Shown here piece after piece: positions 41,339 through 44,819 of a stretch of 64,000 bases of DNA; the first letter of the stretch is position 1; each line of letters opens with the position of its first letter. A program made the position numbers and the translations under genes. The stretch spans positions 558,001 to 622,000 of the forward strand of contig NZ_JAUSYQ010000002.1 in the NCBI RefSeq assembly GCF_030816965.1, given 5' to 3'. The notes under the pieces are model-generated. The model did no database searches. It worked only from the letters and a program-made list of their open reading frames with translations, and was not told the DNA's origin. The DNA comes from Streptomyces canus. GTDB lineage: Bacteria > Actinomycetota > Actinomycetes > Streptomycetales > Streptomycetaceae.

Positions 41339-43015
41339 ATGGCACAGGCCGCCGAATCGGCGCGGACCGTCATCCTGACCGTGGACGACGACCCGGGGGT
41401 CTCCCGCGCCGTCGCCCGCGATCTGCGGCGGCGCTACGGCGAGTCGTACCGGATCGTGCGCGCGGAGTCCGGCGAGTCCGCGCTGGAGGCGCTGCGGGAG
41501 CTGAAGCTGCGCGGCGACCTCGTGGCGGTGATCCTGGCCGACTACCGCATGCCGCAGATGAACGGCATCGAGTTCCTCGAACAGGCCCTGGACGTGTATC
41601 CGGGCGCCCGCCGCGTGCTGCTGACGGCGTACGCGGACACCAGCGCGGCGATCGACGCGATCAACGTCGTCGATCTCGACCACTACCTCCTCAAGCCGTG
41701 GGACCCGCCCGAGGAGAAGCTCTATCCGGTGCTGGACGACCTCCTGGAGGCGTGGCGCTGCAGCGACTACCGGCCCGTGCCCGCCACCAAGGTGATCGGA
41801 CACCGCTGGTCGGCGCGCTCCTCGGACGTGCGGGAGTTCCTGGCCCGCAACCAGGTGCCGTACCGCTGGTACTCCACGGAGGAGCCGGAGGGGCAGCGGC
41901 TGCTGGCTGCCGCGGGGCAGGACGGGCAGCGGCTGCCGGTGGTGATCACCCCCGACGGCACGCCCCTGGTCGAGCCGGAGGCACCGGACCTGGCCGCCCA
42001 CGTGGGCCTCGCCACGACCCCGACCGCCGACTTCTACGACCTCGTCGTCATCGGCGGCGGCCCGGCCGGGCTCGGCGCGGCGGTGTACGGGGCCTCGGAG
42101 GGGCTGCGGACCGTGCTCGTGGAGCGCTCGGCGACCGGCGGGCAGGCCGGGCAGAGCTCACGGATCGAGAACTACCTTGGCTTCCCCGACGGTGTGTCGG
42201 GCGCCCAGCTCACCGAAAGGGCCCGCCGGCAGGCGACGAAGTTCGGCGCCGAGATCCTCACCGCCCGTGAGGTGGCGGGCCTGGAGGTCAACGGCGCGGC
42301 CCGCACCGTGCGGTTCTCGGACGGGTCGGCGGTGGCCGCGCACAGCGTGATCCTGGCGACCGGTGTGTCGTACCGGCAGCTGGAGGCGCCGGGCTGCACG
42401 GACCTGACCGGCTGCGGGGTGTTCTACGGCTCGGCGCTCACCGAGGCGGCCTCCTGCCAGGGGCAGGACATCTACATCGTCGGCGGCGCCAACTCCGCGG
42501 GGCAGGCGGCGATGTACCTGTCCCGGGGTGCCAAGTCGGTGACCCTGCTGGTGCGCGGCCCCGACCTCGCCGCCTCGATGTCGCACTACCTGATCCAGCA
42601 GATCGAGGAATCTCCCAACATCTCGGTACGCGCCCGTACCGTCGTCGAGGCCGCGCACGGCTCCGACCACCTGGAGCAGCTGACCCTGCGCGACACCGAG
42701 ACCGGGGAGACCGAACTCGTCGACGCGCAGTGGATGTTCGTGTTCATCGGCGCGGCCCCGCTGACCGGTTGGCTGGACGGCACGGTGCTGCGGGACGAGC
42801 ACGGCTTCATCCTGGCCGGGCCCGACCTCACGCCCGACGGGCGGCCGCCGGCGGACTGGGAGCTGGACCGGCCGCCGTACCACCTGGAGACCAACATTCC
42901 GGGCGTGTTCGTCGCGGGCGACGCGCGCGCCGAGTCCGCGAAGCGGGTCGCGTCCGCCGTCGGAGAGGGAGCCATGGCCGTGATGCTCGTCCACCGGTAC
43001 CTGGAGCAGTCATGA
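41339..43015 (+). CDS. Response regulator fused to glutaredoxin-like and thioredoxin-reductase-like domains
   Basis: 558 residues in three parts. Residues 10-135 are a receiver (VDDDPG, Asp68 in LADYRMP, Thr96, Lys119 in LLKPWDPPEE). Residues 150-225 look glutaredoxin-like (VIGHRWSARSSDVREFLARN, then the cis-Pro-type RLPVVITPDGTPLVEP) but lack CxxC. Residues 233-558 are a TrxR fold: FAD motif VIGGGPAGLGAA (237-248), NADP motif VGGANSAGQA (381-390) and a C-terminal GVFVAGDAR. The usual CxxC before the NADP motif is absent (GCGVFYGSALTEAASCQG). Overlaps the kinase gene by ATGA; likely its output or modulator. Confidence 0.9.
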   Translation: MAQAAESARTVILTVDDDPGVSRAVARDLRRRYGESYRIVRAESGESALEALRELKLRGDLVAVILADYRMPQMNGIEFLEQALDVYPGARRVLLTAYADTSAAIDAINVVDLDHYLLKPWDPPEEKLYPVLDDLLEAWRCSDYRPVPATKVIGHRWSARSSDVREFLARNQVPYRWYSTEEPEGQRLLAAAGQDGQRLPVVITPDGTPLVEPEAPDLAAHVGLATTPTADFYDLVVIGGGPAGLGAAVYGASEGLRTVLVERSATGGQAGQSSRIENYLGFPDGVSGAQLTERARRQATKFGAEILTAREVAGLEVNGAARTVRFSDGSAVAAHSVILATGVSYRQLEAPGCTDLTGCGVFYGSALTEAASCQGQDIYIVGGANSAGQAAMYLSRGAKSVTLLVRGPDLAASMSHYLIQQIEESPNISVRARTVVEAAHGSDHLEQLTLRDTETGETELVDAQWMFVFIGAAPLTGWLDGTVLRDEHGFILAGPDLTPDGRPPADWELDRPPYHLETNIPGVFVAGDARAESAKRVASAVGEGAMAVMLVHRYLEQS

Positions 43016-44469
43016 GCGGGCAGTTGATGCCGTGCAGCCCCGGGGAGGTCGGGTCGCTGTTCCTGTTCGAGAAGCTCTCGCCCGAGCAGCTCGGACAGCT
43101 GTGCGCCGCGGGCCGGGTGGAGCGGTTCGAACCGGGTCCGGTGTACACCGAGGGGGAACCCGCCACCTGCTTCTACGTGATGATCGAGGGCACGGTCGTC
43201 CTCTCCCGCCGGGTCGGCGGCGACGACGTGGAGGTCAACCGCACCTCGCAGCGCGGGGTCTACTCGGGATCCATGCAGGCCTATCTCGGGGACCGGGTGC
43301 GGCAGACCTACACCAACTCCATGCGAGTGACGGAACCTTCACGGTTCTTCGTGCTGCCCGCGGAGACGTTCTCGGCCTTCATGCAGGAGTGGTTCCCGAT
43401 GGCGGTCCATCTGCTGGAGGGACTCTTCTTCGGTTCGAAGAACACCCAGCGGGCCATCGGACAGCGGGAACGGCTGCTGGCGCTCGGCTCGTTGTCCGCC
43501 GGTCTCACCCACGAGCTCAACAACCCCGCGGCGGCTGCCGTGCGAGCCACGGCGACGCTGCGCGAGCGGGTGGGCAAGATGCGGCACAAGCTCGGCATCA
43601 TCGCCCAGGGCTCCTACTCCCCCGAGGTGATGGCGAACCTCATCGACATCCAGGAGCGCACCGCCGAACGCGTCGCCAAGGCGCCCGTGTTGAGCCCGCT
43701 GGAGGCGTCCGACCGGGAGGACACCCTCGCCGACTGGCTCGACGACCACGGCATCCAGGAGGGCTGGCGGATCGCCCCCACCTTCGTGCAGGGCGGCCTC
43801 GACGTGGACTGGCTGGACCAGGTCGCGGCGACCGTGGGCGAGGAGATCCTGCCGAACGCGATCGGCTGGCTCAACTACACCGTCGAGACCGAGCTGTTGA
43901 TGGACGAGATCAACGACTCCACGGCCCGTATCTCGCATCTCGTCGACGCCGCGAAGCAGTACTCCCAGCTGGACCGGGCGCCGTATCAGGTGGCCGACGT
44001 GCACGAACTCCTCGACAGCACGCTGCTGATGCTGTCCGGGAAGATCGGGCAGCAGATCAAGGTGGTCAAGGAGTACGACCGGACGCTGCCGAGGATCCCG
44101 GCCTACCCCGCCGAGCTCAACCAGGTGTGGACGAACCTGATCGACAACGCGGTGCAGGCCATCAACAGCGCCGGCGGGGACGGGACGTTGACCGTCCGGA
44201 CCGCGCTCGAACACGACCGGCTGCTGGTGGAGTTCCGGGACACCGGGCCCGGGGTGCCGCCGGACATCCGCGGGCGTATCTTCGACCCCTTCTTCACCAC
44301 CAAGCCCGTGGGTGAGGGGACGGGGCTCGGGCTCGACATCTCCTGGCGGATCGTGGTCAACAAGCACCACGGGACGCTTCAGGTGGAGTCGTCACCGGGC
44401 GACACCCGCTTCCAGGTGCTGCTTCCGCTGACCGCCGCGGACAACGACACGACCGAGGAGCCGGAATGA
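43012..44469 (+). CDS. Soluble histidine kinase with N-terminal cyclic nucleotide-binding domain
   Basis: 485 residues, no membrane segment. A cNMP-binding domain spans about 15-140 (LFEKLSPEQLGQLCAAGRVE, EGEPATCFYVMIEGTVVLSR, then RGVYSGSMQAYLGDR in place of the ligand cassette). The kinase core has His167 (LSAGLTHELNNPAAAAV), a long helical insertion (about 185-300), N-box QVWTNLIDNAVQAIN, G1 RDTGPGVPPDIRG and G2 GEGTGLGLDIS. Coupled by overlapping ATGA to genes on both sides. Probably phosphorylates the receiver of the upstream fusion, making the NADPH/FAD domain part of a redox signal; that is inferred. Confidence 0.92.
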   Translation: MSGQLMPCSPGEVGSLFLFEKLSPEQLGQLCAAGRVERFEPGPVYTEGEPATCFYVMIEGTVVLSRRVGGDDVEVNRTSQRGVYSGSMQAYLGDRVRQTYTNSMRVTEPSRFFVLPAETFSAFMQEWFPMAVHLLEGLFFGSKNTQRAIGQRERLLALGSLSAGLTHELNNPAAAAVRATATLRERVGKMRHKLGIIAQGSYSPEVMANLIDIQERTAERVAKAPVLSPLEASDREDTLADWLDDHGIQEGWRIAPTFVQGGLDVDWLDQVAATVGEEILPNAIGWLNYTVETELLMDEINDSTARISHLVDAAKQYSQLDRAPYQVADVHELLDSTLLMLSGKIGQQIKVVKEYDRTLPRIPAYPAELNQVWTNLIDNAVQAINSAGGDGTLTVRTALEHDRLLVEFRDTGPGVPPDIRGRIFDPFFTTKPVGEGTGLGLDISWRIVVNKHHGTLQVESSPGDTRFQVLLPLTAADNDTTEEPE

Positions 44470-44819
44470 CCGACATCAAGGGGATCGACCCGAGCGTGCC
44501 GCCCAGCGGGGACGGGTGCGTGGAGTGCGACGCGGCGGGCGGATGGTGGTTCCATCTGCGGCGGTGTGCGCAGTGCGGGCACGTGGGGTGCTGTGACTCC
44601 TCGCCCGGGCAGCACGCGACCGGGCATTTCCGGGACTCGGGGCATCCTCTGGTGCAGAGTTTCGAGCCGGGTGAGGAGTGGTTCTGGAACTTCGAGACGA
44701 GTGAGATGTTCGAGGCGGGGCCCGAGCTCGCGGCGCCGGGGAATCATCCGGAGGGTCAGCCGGCTCCTGGGCCGGAGGGGCGGGTGCCGGCGGATTGGGC
44801 ACGGACACTGCGCGGCTGA
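44466..44819 (+). CDS. UBP-type zinc finger protein
   Basis: 117 residues. Zinc ligands are Cys18/Cys21, Cys34/Cys37, Cys42 or Cys43, and His50, His54, His60 in the zf-UBP arrangement (CVECDAAGGWWFHLRRCAQC, GHVGCCDSSPGQHATGHFRD, SGHPLVQS), then WFWNFETSEMF and a Pro/Gly/Glu-rich tail. In eukaryotes this fold binds the C-terminal end of ubiquitin. Actinobacterial copies are uncharacterised. The start overlaps the kinase stop by 4 bases, so it belongs to the redox operon and may bind a protein C-terminus or sense zinc/thiol state. Confidence 0.88.
   Translation: MTDIKGIDPSVPPSGDGCVECDAAGGWWFHLRRCAQCGHVGCCDSSPGQHATGHFRDSGHPLVQSFEPGEEWFWNFETSEMFEAGPELAAPGNHPEGQPAPGPEGRVPADWARTLRG

Follow-up and report, generated by a model that had tools for sequence, protein, structure and literature searches.

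The locus described here raises the question of what a two-component system may act upon when it encodes no DNA-binding output. In the Streptomyces canus genome (10.66 Mb, two contigs), a plus-strand run of three genes occupies positions 41339-44819 of the window, the whole 64,000-nucleotide stretch that was analysed. It encodes a flavoprotein with an N-terminal receiver (gene 1), a soluble histidine kinase (gene 2) and a small zf-UBP protein (gene 3), and a Pfam scan detected no DNA-binding output domain in the trio. On balance, we favour the proposal that these genes define a two-component system with a flavoprotein output and a zf-UBP partner. Its kinase-to-receiver part, with phosphotransfer predicted from conserved residues and gene linkage, is advanced with high confidence, and it is likely that the output is a flavoprotein that is not a thioredoxin reductase (TrxR). 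The genes and their overlaps are the following:

41339..43015, plus strand: gene 1, receiver / glutaredoxin-like / TrxR-fold flavoprotein, 558 aa (open reading frame, Pfam, model)
43012..44469, plus strand: gene 2, soluble histidine kinase, 485 aa (open reading frame, Pfam, model)
44466..44819, plus strand: gene 3, zf-UBP protein, 117 aa (open reading frame, Pfam)
43012..43015, plus strand: ATGA overlap of genes 1 and 2 (sequence)
44466..44469, plus strand: ATGA overlap of genes 2 and 3 (sequence)

An earlier note, made from the letters of this DNA, had described three genes joined by two ATGA overlaps. Its coordinates proved exact, and the domains it named were recovered above curated Pfam cut-offs (Response_reg and Pyr_redox_2 in gene 1, cNMP_binding and HATPase_c in gene 2, zf-UBP in gene 3), with weak recovery of the glutaredoxin-like part. 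The same genome contains two more complete trios, at 4.35 and 10.38 Mb, presenting 91% and 86% identity to the window in gene 1, 78% and 73% in gene 2, and 73% and 65% in gene 3; both 4-base overlaps are kept in all three copies. Such multiplicity is unusual, with at most one gene 1 match at an E-value of 1e-200 in each of the genomes of 60 other relatives.

Linkage of these genes was also evident beyond S. canus. Among 296 Actinomycetota genomes, searches that scored the best 4, 5 and 20 candidates per genome for genes 1, 2 and 3, and may hence miss copies, identified relatives of gene 1 in 72 (E 1e-60), of gene 2 in 37 (E 1e-40) and of zf-UBP in 68 (E 1e-5). Gene 1 was present in 37/37 kinase-bearing genomes, and 49 of the 56 gene 2-family kinases lay within 6 kb of a gene 1-type flavoprotein, all 49 on the same strand. 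The zf-UBP genes were found within 6 kb of gene 1 in 21 of 94 cases, versus about 0.4 expected under a rough assumed genome size of 4.5 Mb. In the genus set, gene 1 was identified in 20/37 genomes. In 17 of these 20 (S. canus included), the flavoprotein has an intact zf-UBP gene at a distance of 1.4-1.7 kb, a gap that fits a kinase gene (the kinase being searched for in few of them). In the remaining three, zf-UBP is broken in one and none was found in two, one of them at a contig end. Long-type zf-UBP genes, sorted by hand, were present in 18/20 genus genomes with gene 1 versus 1/17 without it; in another genus (g200), genomes with gene 1 also have a long-type zf-UBP gene, which does not adjoin it.

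Among the matches listed, the pair of kinase and receiver-flavoprotein was found in about eleven phyla. An alignment of intact-receiver proteins served as query against a species-genome collection; of the best 80 loci, which were kept, 67 had a gene 2-family kinase (at least 250 bits) and 15 had zf-UBP. Intact receivers are over-represented in this set because it comprises the best matches to an intact-receiver alignment. These loci belong to Acidobacteriota, Cyanobacteriota, Chloroflexota, Actinomycetota, Bacteroidota, Pseudomonadota, Verrucomicrobiota and Gemmatimonadota, among others, and zf-UBP is also present at Bacteroidota (L164, L170) and Cyanobacteriota (L122, L137) loci. Annotated plasmids contributed Deinococcus as well as further Caballeronia and Gloeothece pairs, with eight flavoprotein loci coming from hand-picked plasmid matches (L093-L097, L099, L101, L106); a further 60 Actinomycetota regions were picked from 105 matches so as to span identities. 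The trio was thus confirmed as a conserved unit, through overlaps kept in three paralogous copies and linkage within and beyond the phylum. Mere inheritance of an operon in Streptomyces, without joint function, could explain adjacency there, and some zf-UBP and kinase genes are indeed unlinked. Nonetheless, linkage in so many phyla, in different gene orders and accompanied by kinase-zf-UBP fusions, renders this explanation highly improbable.

The next question is whether the kinase and the receiver constitute a cognate pair. The relevant features of both proteins are:

41372..41710, plus strand: receiver domain of gene 1 (residues 12-124), key residues intact (Pfam, alignment)
41540..41542, plus strand: Asp68, predicted phosphoacceptor (invariant in all 69 rows of an alignment made up mainly of intact receivers)
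43039..43389, plus strand: cNMP-fold sensor domain of gene 2 (residues 10-126), with diverged cassette (Pfam, model)
43393..43608, plus strand: first helix (residues 128-199) of the dimerization and histidine phosphotransfer (DHp) hairpin, bearing His167 (alignment, model)
43510..43512, plus strand: His167, in a HELNNP motif (invariant in 57 sequences)
43621..43836, plus strand: four-helix insert (residues 204-275) between the DHp helices (alignment, model)
43849..43974, plus strand: second DHp helix (residues 280-321; model)
43987..44433, plus strand: HATPase_c catalytic domain (residues 326-474; Pfam, model)

The receiver contains the phosphoacceptor Asp (D68), the acidic pair (D16 D17), the Thr (T96) and the Lys (K119), and the kinase contains a phosphoacceptor His and the ATP-binding boxes; Asp68 and His167 had both been correctly placed by the earlier note. 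The predicted structure of gene 2 (mean predicted local distance difference test score 90, predicted template modelling score 0.66) presents a catalytic domain of normal form. The four-helix insert is conserved throughout the kinase family (consensus SDxEDxLxxWL and LAP) and Pfam names no domain there.

Concordance between receiver state and kinase presence was assessed in 146 loci outside the S. canus genome, to which the 149-row alignment of the gene 1 family adds its three copies. A kinase was counted at 250 bits or above and its absence judged only where 2.5 kb were available on both sides; three loci ending inside a probable kinase (L050, L109, L169) were counted as not judged, and L062 (reading frame interrupted by a stop), L095 (too short for the length limit) and L103 (fragments only) were left out of the rows. 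Of the 105 judged loci with intact receivers (D68, D16 D17, K119 and Thr/Ser at 96), 97 had a gene 2-family kinase nearby. Degenerate receivers had one in 0/16 judged loci (20 in all), as did flavoproteins in which a cNMP domain replaces the receiver (0/14 judged, 15 in all), and L077 presents neither a recognisable N-terminal domain nor a kinase. The difference between intact and degenerate receivers is pronounced (Fisher p 2e-14, kinship being ignored in this value). The pattern is clean in one direction, with no kinase in the absence of an intact receiver, but it comprises few events.

Several results weigh against the proposal. On a tree of the glutaredoxin-like and TrxR core (129 rows, quick search, simpler model), receiver integrity changes only about three times, one of these changes, in L185 (Tengunoibacter), lying outside the main degenerate clade. 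Only two independent pairs were supported (sign test p 0.5), and almost all the time they pointed the expected way. For the kinase, eleven changes in presence were counted, most of them with the receiver unchanged, and of six pairs differing in kinase an average of 4.5 show no receiver difference. Eight intact-receiver loci, six of them cyanobacterial, have no kinase in the fetched flanks. In addition, zf-UBP is absent from 67 of the 94 judged intact-receiver loci, and about 12.5 of the 13 tree pairs that differ in zf-UBP presence do so without a kinase difference. An analysis of interface covariation, with too few sequences (98 pairs, effective 75), failed to bring out the expected interface: for receiver helix 1, p was 0.056 with the second DHp helix and 0.58 with the first, and the lowest value (p 0.00015) linked the glutaredoxin-like and catalytic domains, which are not an expected contact. 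The co-occurrence check put forward in the earlier note gave a mixed outcome: the kinase and the flavoprotein mostly accompany each other where the receiver is intact, and the complete trio was found in only 27 of the 94 judged loci. From linkage and concordance, it is nevertheless very probable that the kinase and the receiver form a cognate pair, in keeping with the earlier note.

If phosphate reaches the receiver, it is pertinent to ask what kind of protein the receiver controls. The remaining features of gene 1 are:

41786..42010, plus strand: glutaredoxin-like domain (residues ~150-224), without CxxC (Pro200 in 147/149 rows; model)
42029..43012, plus strand: TrxR-fold FAD/NAD(P) domains (residues 231-558; Pfam, model)
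42416..42445, plus strand: slot of the TrxR CxxC, here GVFYGSALTE (Tyr363 in 148/149 rows)

The model of gene 1 presents a TrxR fold with motifs for flavin adenine dinucleotide (FAD) and NAD(P)H sites, which predict cofactor binding and are conserved across the 149 rows. The TrxR CxxC, in contrast, is found in 0/149 rows, while the genome's own TrxB carries CATC, and gene 1 scores below the cut-off of the curated TrxR model TIGR01292 (219.3 versus 343.45 bits). Judged by its residues, the product is TrxR-like in fold only. Because it lacks the redox disulfide, it cannot reduce thioredoxin in the usual manner; TrxR activity was accordingly ruled out, and with it the thiol chemistry of the TrxR type entertained in the earlier note. 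Databases name gene 1 'FAD-dependent oxidoreductase', 'thioredoxin reductase (NADPH)' or 'fused response regulator/thioredoxin-disulfide reductase', the last two being misleading since the CxxC is missing. The NADPH motif of thioredoxin reductases is HRRxxxR, and in this slot TrxB has HRRDTLR versus VRGPDLA in gene 1; across the 149 rows, the first Arg is kept in 148, the next position is Gly in 113 and the last is Arg in 8. Of the FAD and NADP motifs reported earlier, the former stands and the latter is changed, so that a preference for NADPH over NADH is not established.

The middle domain is only tentatively glutaredoxin-like; its predicted structure has the element order beta-alpha-beta-alpha-beta-beta-alpha. 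Pfam Glutaredoxin matched three of six family members scanned, all below the cut-off (E 2e-4, 2.5e-3 and 0.26), the window copy giving no match. No glutaredoxin active site (CxxC or CxxS) was detected, with a Cys pair at residues 150-172 in 0/149 rows and a single Cys in ten.

The direction of the signal is suggested by domain placement: as the receiver is on the flavoprotein and a sensor domain on the kinase, it should run from kinase to flavoprotein, and the flavoprotein is probably the output of the system and not its sensor. This was one of the options raised in the earlier note. Its other suggestion, in which the flavoprotein senses NADPH or thiol status and passes this on as phosphotransfer, is not supported and runs opposite to this placement. 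A related possibility is that the redox state of the FAD alters the receiver and feeds back on the kinase or phosphatase activity. Flavins can serve as indicators of the NAD(P)H/NAD(P)+ ratio, the cofactor motifs are conserved, and the trio is devoid of a DNA-binding output. Yet a receiver normally controls its fusion partner, the kinase has a sensor domain of its own, and kinase-less relatives place on the flavoprotein a cNMP domain and not an output domain, so that we deem a sensory flavoprotein decidedly unlikely.

The sensor domain of the kinase passes the Pfam cNMP_binding cut-off (32.5 versus 27.5 bits). The cassette motif for cyclic-nucleotide binding includes Glu and Arg, and such a phosphate-binding cassette was not found in gene 2, where the window reads GVYSGSMQAYLGDRVRQTYT; nucleotide sensing by this copy is doubtful because the usual cassette is missing, and canonical cyclic-nucleotide binding was rejected on the same grounds. 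Cassette-like sequence is kept in the kinase relatives L136, L149, L156, L161 and L183, and the domain is variable within the family, to the point that L126 has a receiver in its place. Kinases of this family also occur as two or three tandem copies behind one receiver-flavoprotein (L039-L043, and L124 of Rubrobacteraceae), and flank a receiver-flavoprotein on both sides in Caballeronia sp. NK8 (L093, 4478-9056).

In the favoured two-component arrangement, the soluble kinase, with its cNMP-fold sensor and its DHp hairpin interrupted by the four-helix insert, would autophosphorylate on His167, and the phosphate would pass to Asp68 of the flavoprotein-fused receiver. Receiver phosphorylation would probably shift the seating of the NAD(P)H domain on the FAD domain, and this shift could switch electron transfer to another acceptor or a redox-dependent conformation. 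The zf-UBP protein might serve as a docking factor that joins the kinase to the flavoprotein or brings them to a client protein. In related flavoproteins, a cNMP domain on the same chain takes the place of receiver and kinase, an architecture that can be read as a one-component form of the same switch.

This leaves the question of the third gene, whose domain is located as follows:

44517..44708, plus strand: zf-UBP domain (residues 18-81; C18 C21 C34 C37 C42 C43 H50 H54 H60 invariant in 19 sequences)

The conserved Cys and His residues predict zinc binding, and gene 3 shows sequence similarity to USP5, USP13 and HDAC6 chains. The zf-UBP gene is the third gene of the trio in Streptomyces and relatives; in one same-genus trio (L028, 8903-9518) it is split over two frames, through a frameshift or a sequencing error. 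Elsewhere it adjoins kinase-less flavoproteins (L067, L071, L076, L083, L085, L096, L106), in either order and several times overlapping. The Rhodococcus plasmid pYLL1 (L106, 4525-6939) carries a run of dnaK, grpE, J-domain, cbpM, clpB, trxA, zf-UBP and cNMP/TrxR-fold flavoprotein genes, the last three overlapping. In L049, zf-UBP is fused to a gene 2-type kinase, and 52 of the 120 listed matches to this protein are kinase-zf-UBP fusions, a figure that is not a rate because the query was itself a fusion. Based on this observed linkage and fusion, the zf-UBP protein belongs to the kinase/flavoprotein system, in which it may dock; an adaptor role is put forward tentatively.

By analogy with eukaryotic zf-UBP and ubiquitin, the domain could instead bind the C-terminal tail of a ubiquitin-like modifier such as Pup. 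The Pfam match, the similarity to USP5, USP13 and HDAC6 and a Trp72 invariant in 19 sequences are compatible with this reading. In eukaryotic zf-UBP, however, an Arg holds the Gly-Gly tail of ubiquitin, and no Arg is conserved at either candidate position, the aligned position being uncertain. Moreover, linkage of the flavoprotein with zf-UBP extends to Rhizobium and Bacteroidota, which to our knowledge lack Pup. Binding of a modifier tail is therefore very unlikely, and the Pup/ubiquitin reading was rejected as weak.

Membrane proteins provide another set of associations. In Acidobacteriota, Deinococcota and Actinomycetota, zf-UBP forms the C-terminus of cation/proton antiporters at seven loci (L102, L110, L189-L192, L194), in one frame with Na_H_Exchanger or a close relative, and in L195 (3588-5246) it is fused to the membrane protein LtrA. 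The L110 fusion (Acidobacteriota), with a Kef-type antiporter, adjoins a receiver-flavoprotein and kinase pair. An antiporter also adjoins zf-UBP at L091 (S. canus), L193, L199, L201 and L205-L207, as confirmed by Pfam in L091, L199 and L201, and LtrA lies near flavoprotein/kinase or zf-UBP loci at L099, L115, L137, L140, L161 and L199. In genome G195, a single strand carries the flavoprotein along with three kinases, zf-UBP, an antiporter and LtrA over ~14 kb, an arrangement resembling the Rubrobacteraceae locus L124.

These associations would fit a link, through zf-UBP, of the flavoprotein or kinase to cation/proton antiporters, with the system gating ion and pH homeostasis in analogy to KefF/KefC. 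No antiporter, however, is present in or directly beside the window operon, and among the scanned flavoprotein loci one was detected in the flanks of L110 only. The antiporter-adjoining zf-UBP of S. canus matches gene 3 only over residues 9-77 (54%). Furthermore, the 20 zf-UBP loci were chosen with preference for long open frames, which favours fusions in the sample. We thus consider this link unlikely. The same degree of doubt applies to a more general conjecture, in which zf-UBP would be a portable bacterial docking domain that places a phosphorylation- or ligand-switched, CxxC-less TrxR-fold flavoprotein on clients (its own kinase, Kef-/NhaP-like cation/proton antiporters, LtrA). The resulting pan-bacterial signalling system would tie ion and pH homeostasis to NAD(P)H-flavin chemistry, and its input could interchangeably be one-component (cNMP) or two-component (kinase/receiver).

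The S. canus genome contains two extra zf-UBP genes, one in L091 (6155-8149, at 6.77 Mb), adjoining the Na_H_Exchanger antiporter, and one in L090 (6155-6589, at 10.31 Mb), with no trio members nearby. In the window, the trio is preceded by DUF4032/Kdo-kinase-like, universal stress and glyoxalase-like genes (38689-41219) and followed by an AAA/LuxR regulator (44566-47919); several of the trio loci in Streptomyces likewise carry relatives of the DUF4032 gene and the regulator. No recurrent further partner was identified in trio-type neighbourhoods beyond local synteny and common families, LtrA near five loci excepted. A defence role is unsupported, as none of the trio proteins matched PADLOC at E 0.001.

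Should the two-component reading with a flavoprotein output be correct, many annotated thioredoxin reductases and FAD-dependent oxidoreductases would be signalling outputs unable to reduce thioredoxin in the known way. The trio would represent an uncharted class of two-component system with an enzyme-like flavoprotein instead of a DNA-binding output, testable with three small soluble proteins, and bacterial zf-UBP, known mainly from ubiquitin biology, would gain a setting of its own.

How, then, does the trio compare with known systems? The earlier note knew of no described pathway, and a literature search, with most subscription journals outside its coverage, likewise found no account of kinase, flavoprotein and zf-UBP together; the trio is widespread and, as far as that search went, unstudied. 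A census of archaeal two-component systems lists a receiver-TrxR fusion, the same domain pair as gene 1, as a 'Mycobacterium-like' combination (PMC5847659); the portion of the census consulted is a listing, giving no kinase partner, zf-UBP, CxxC loss or function. Compared to low-molecular-weight TrxB and AhpF, gene 1 lacks the CxxC in all 149 rows, falls short of TIGR01292 (219 versus 343), bears an N-terminal receiver and has a changed NADPH motif. It differs from TrxR-type ferredoxin/flavodoxin-NADP reductases (FNR) in its receiver and glutaredoxin-like domains. The closest solved relative of gene 3 is the zf-UBP protein 2ida (E 4.6e-24), deposited as 'Hypothetical protein', a molecule name that gives no function. 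A further likeness is to KefC/KefF, in which the KefF flavoprotein acts on the KefC antiporter: here too a flavoprotein is tied to a cation/proton antiporter, as in L110, with its Kef-type antiporter/zf-UBP fusion beside a kinase/flavoprotein pair. KefF, however, is a flavodoxin-fold enzyme unrelated to the gene 1 flavoprotein, and the window operon has no antiporter. Set against these systems, the trio is probably a two-component system whose output is unusual and whose zf-UBP partner lacks an explanation.

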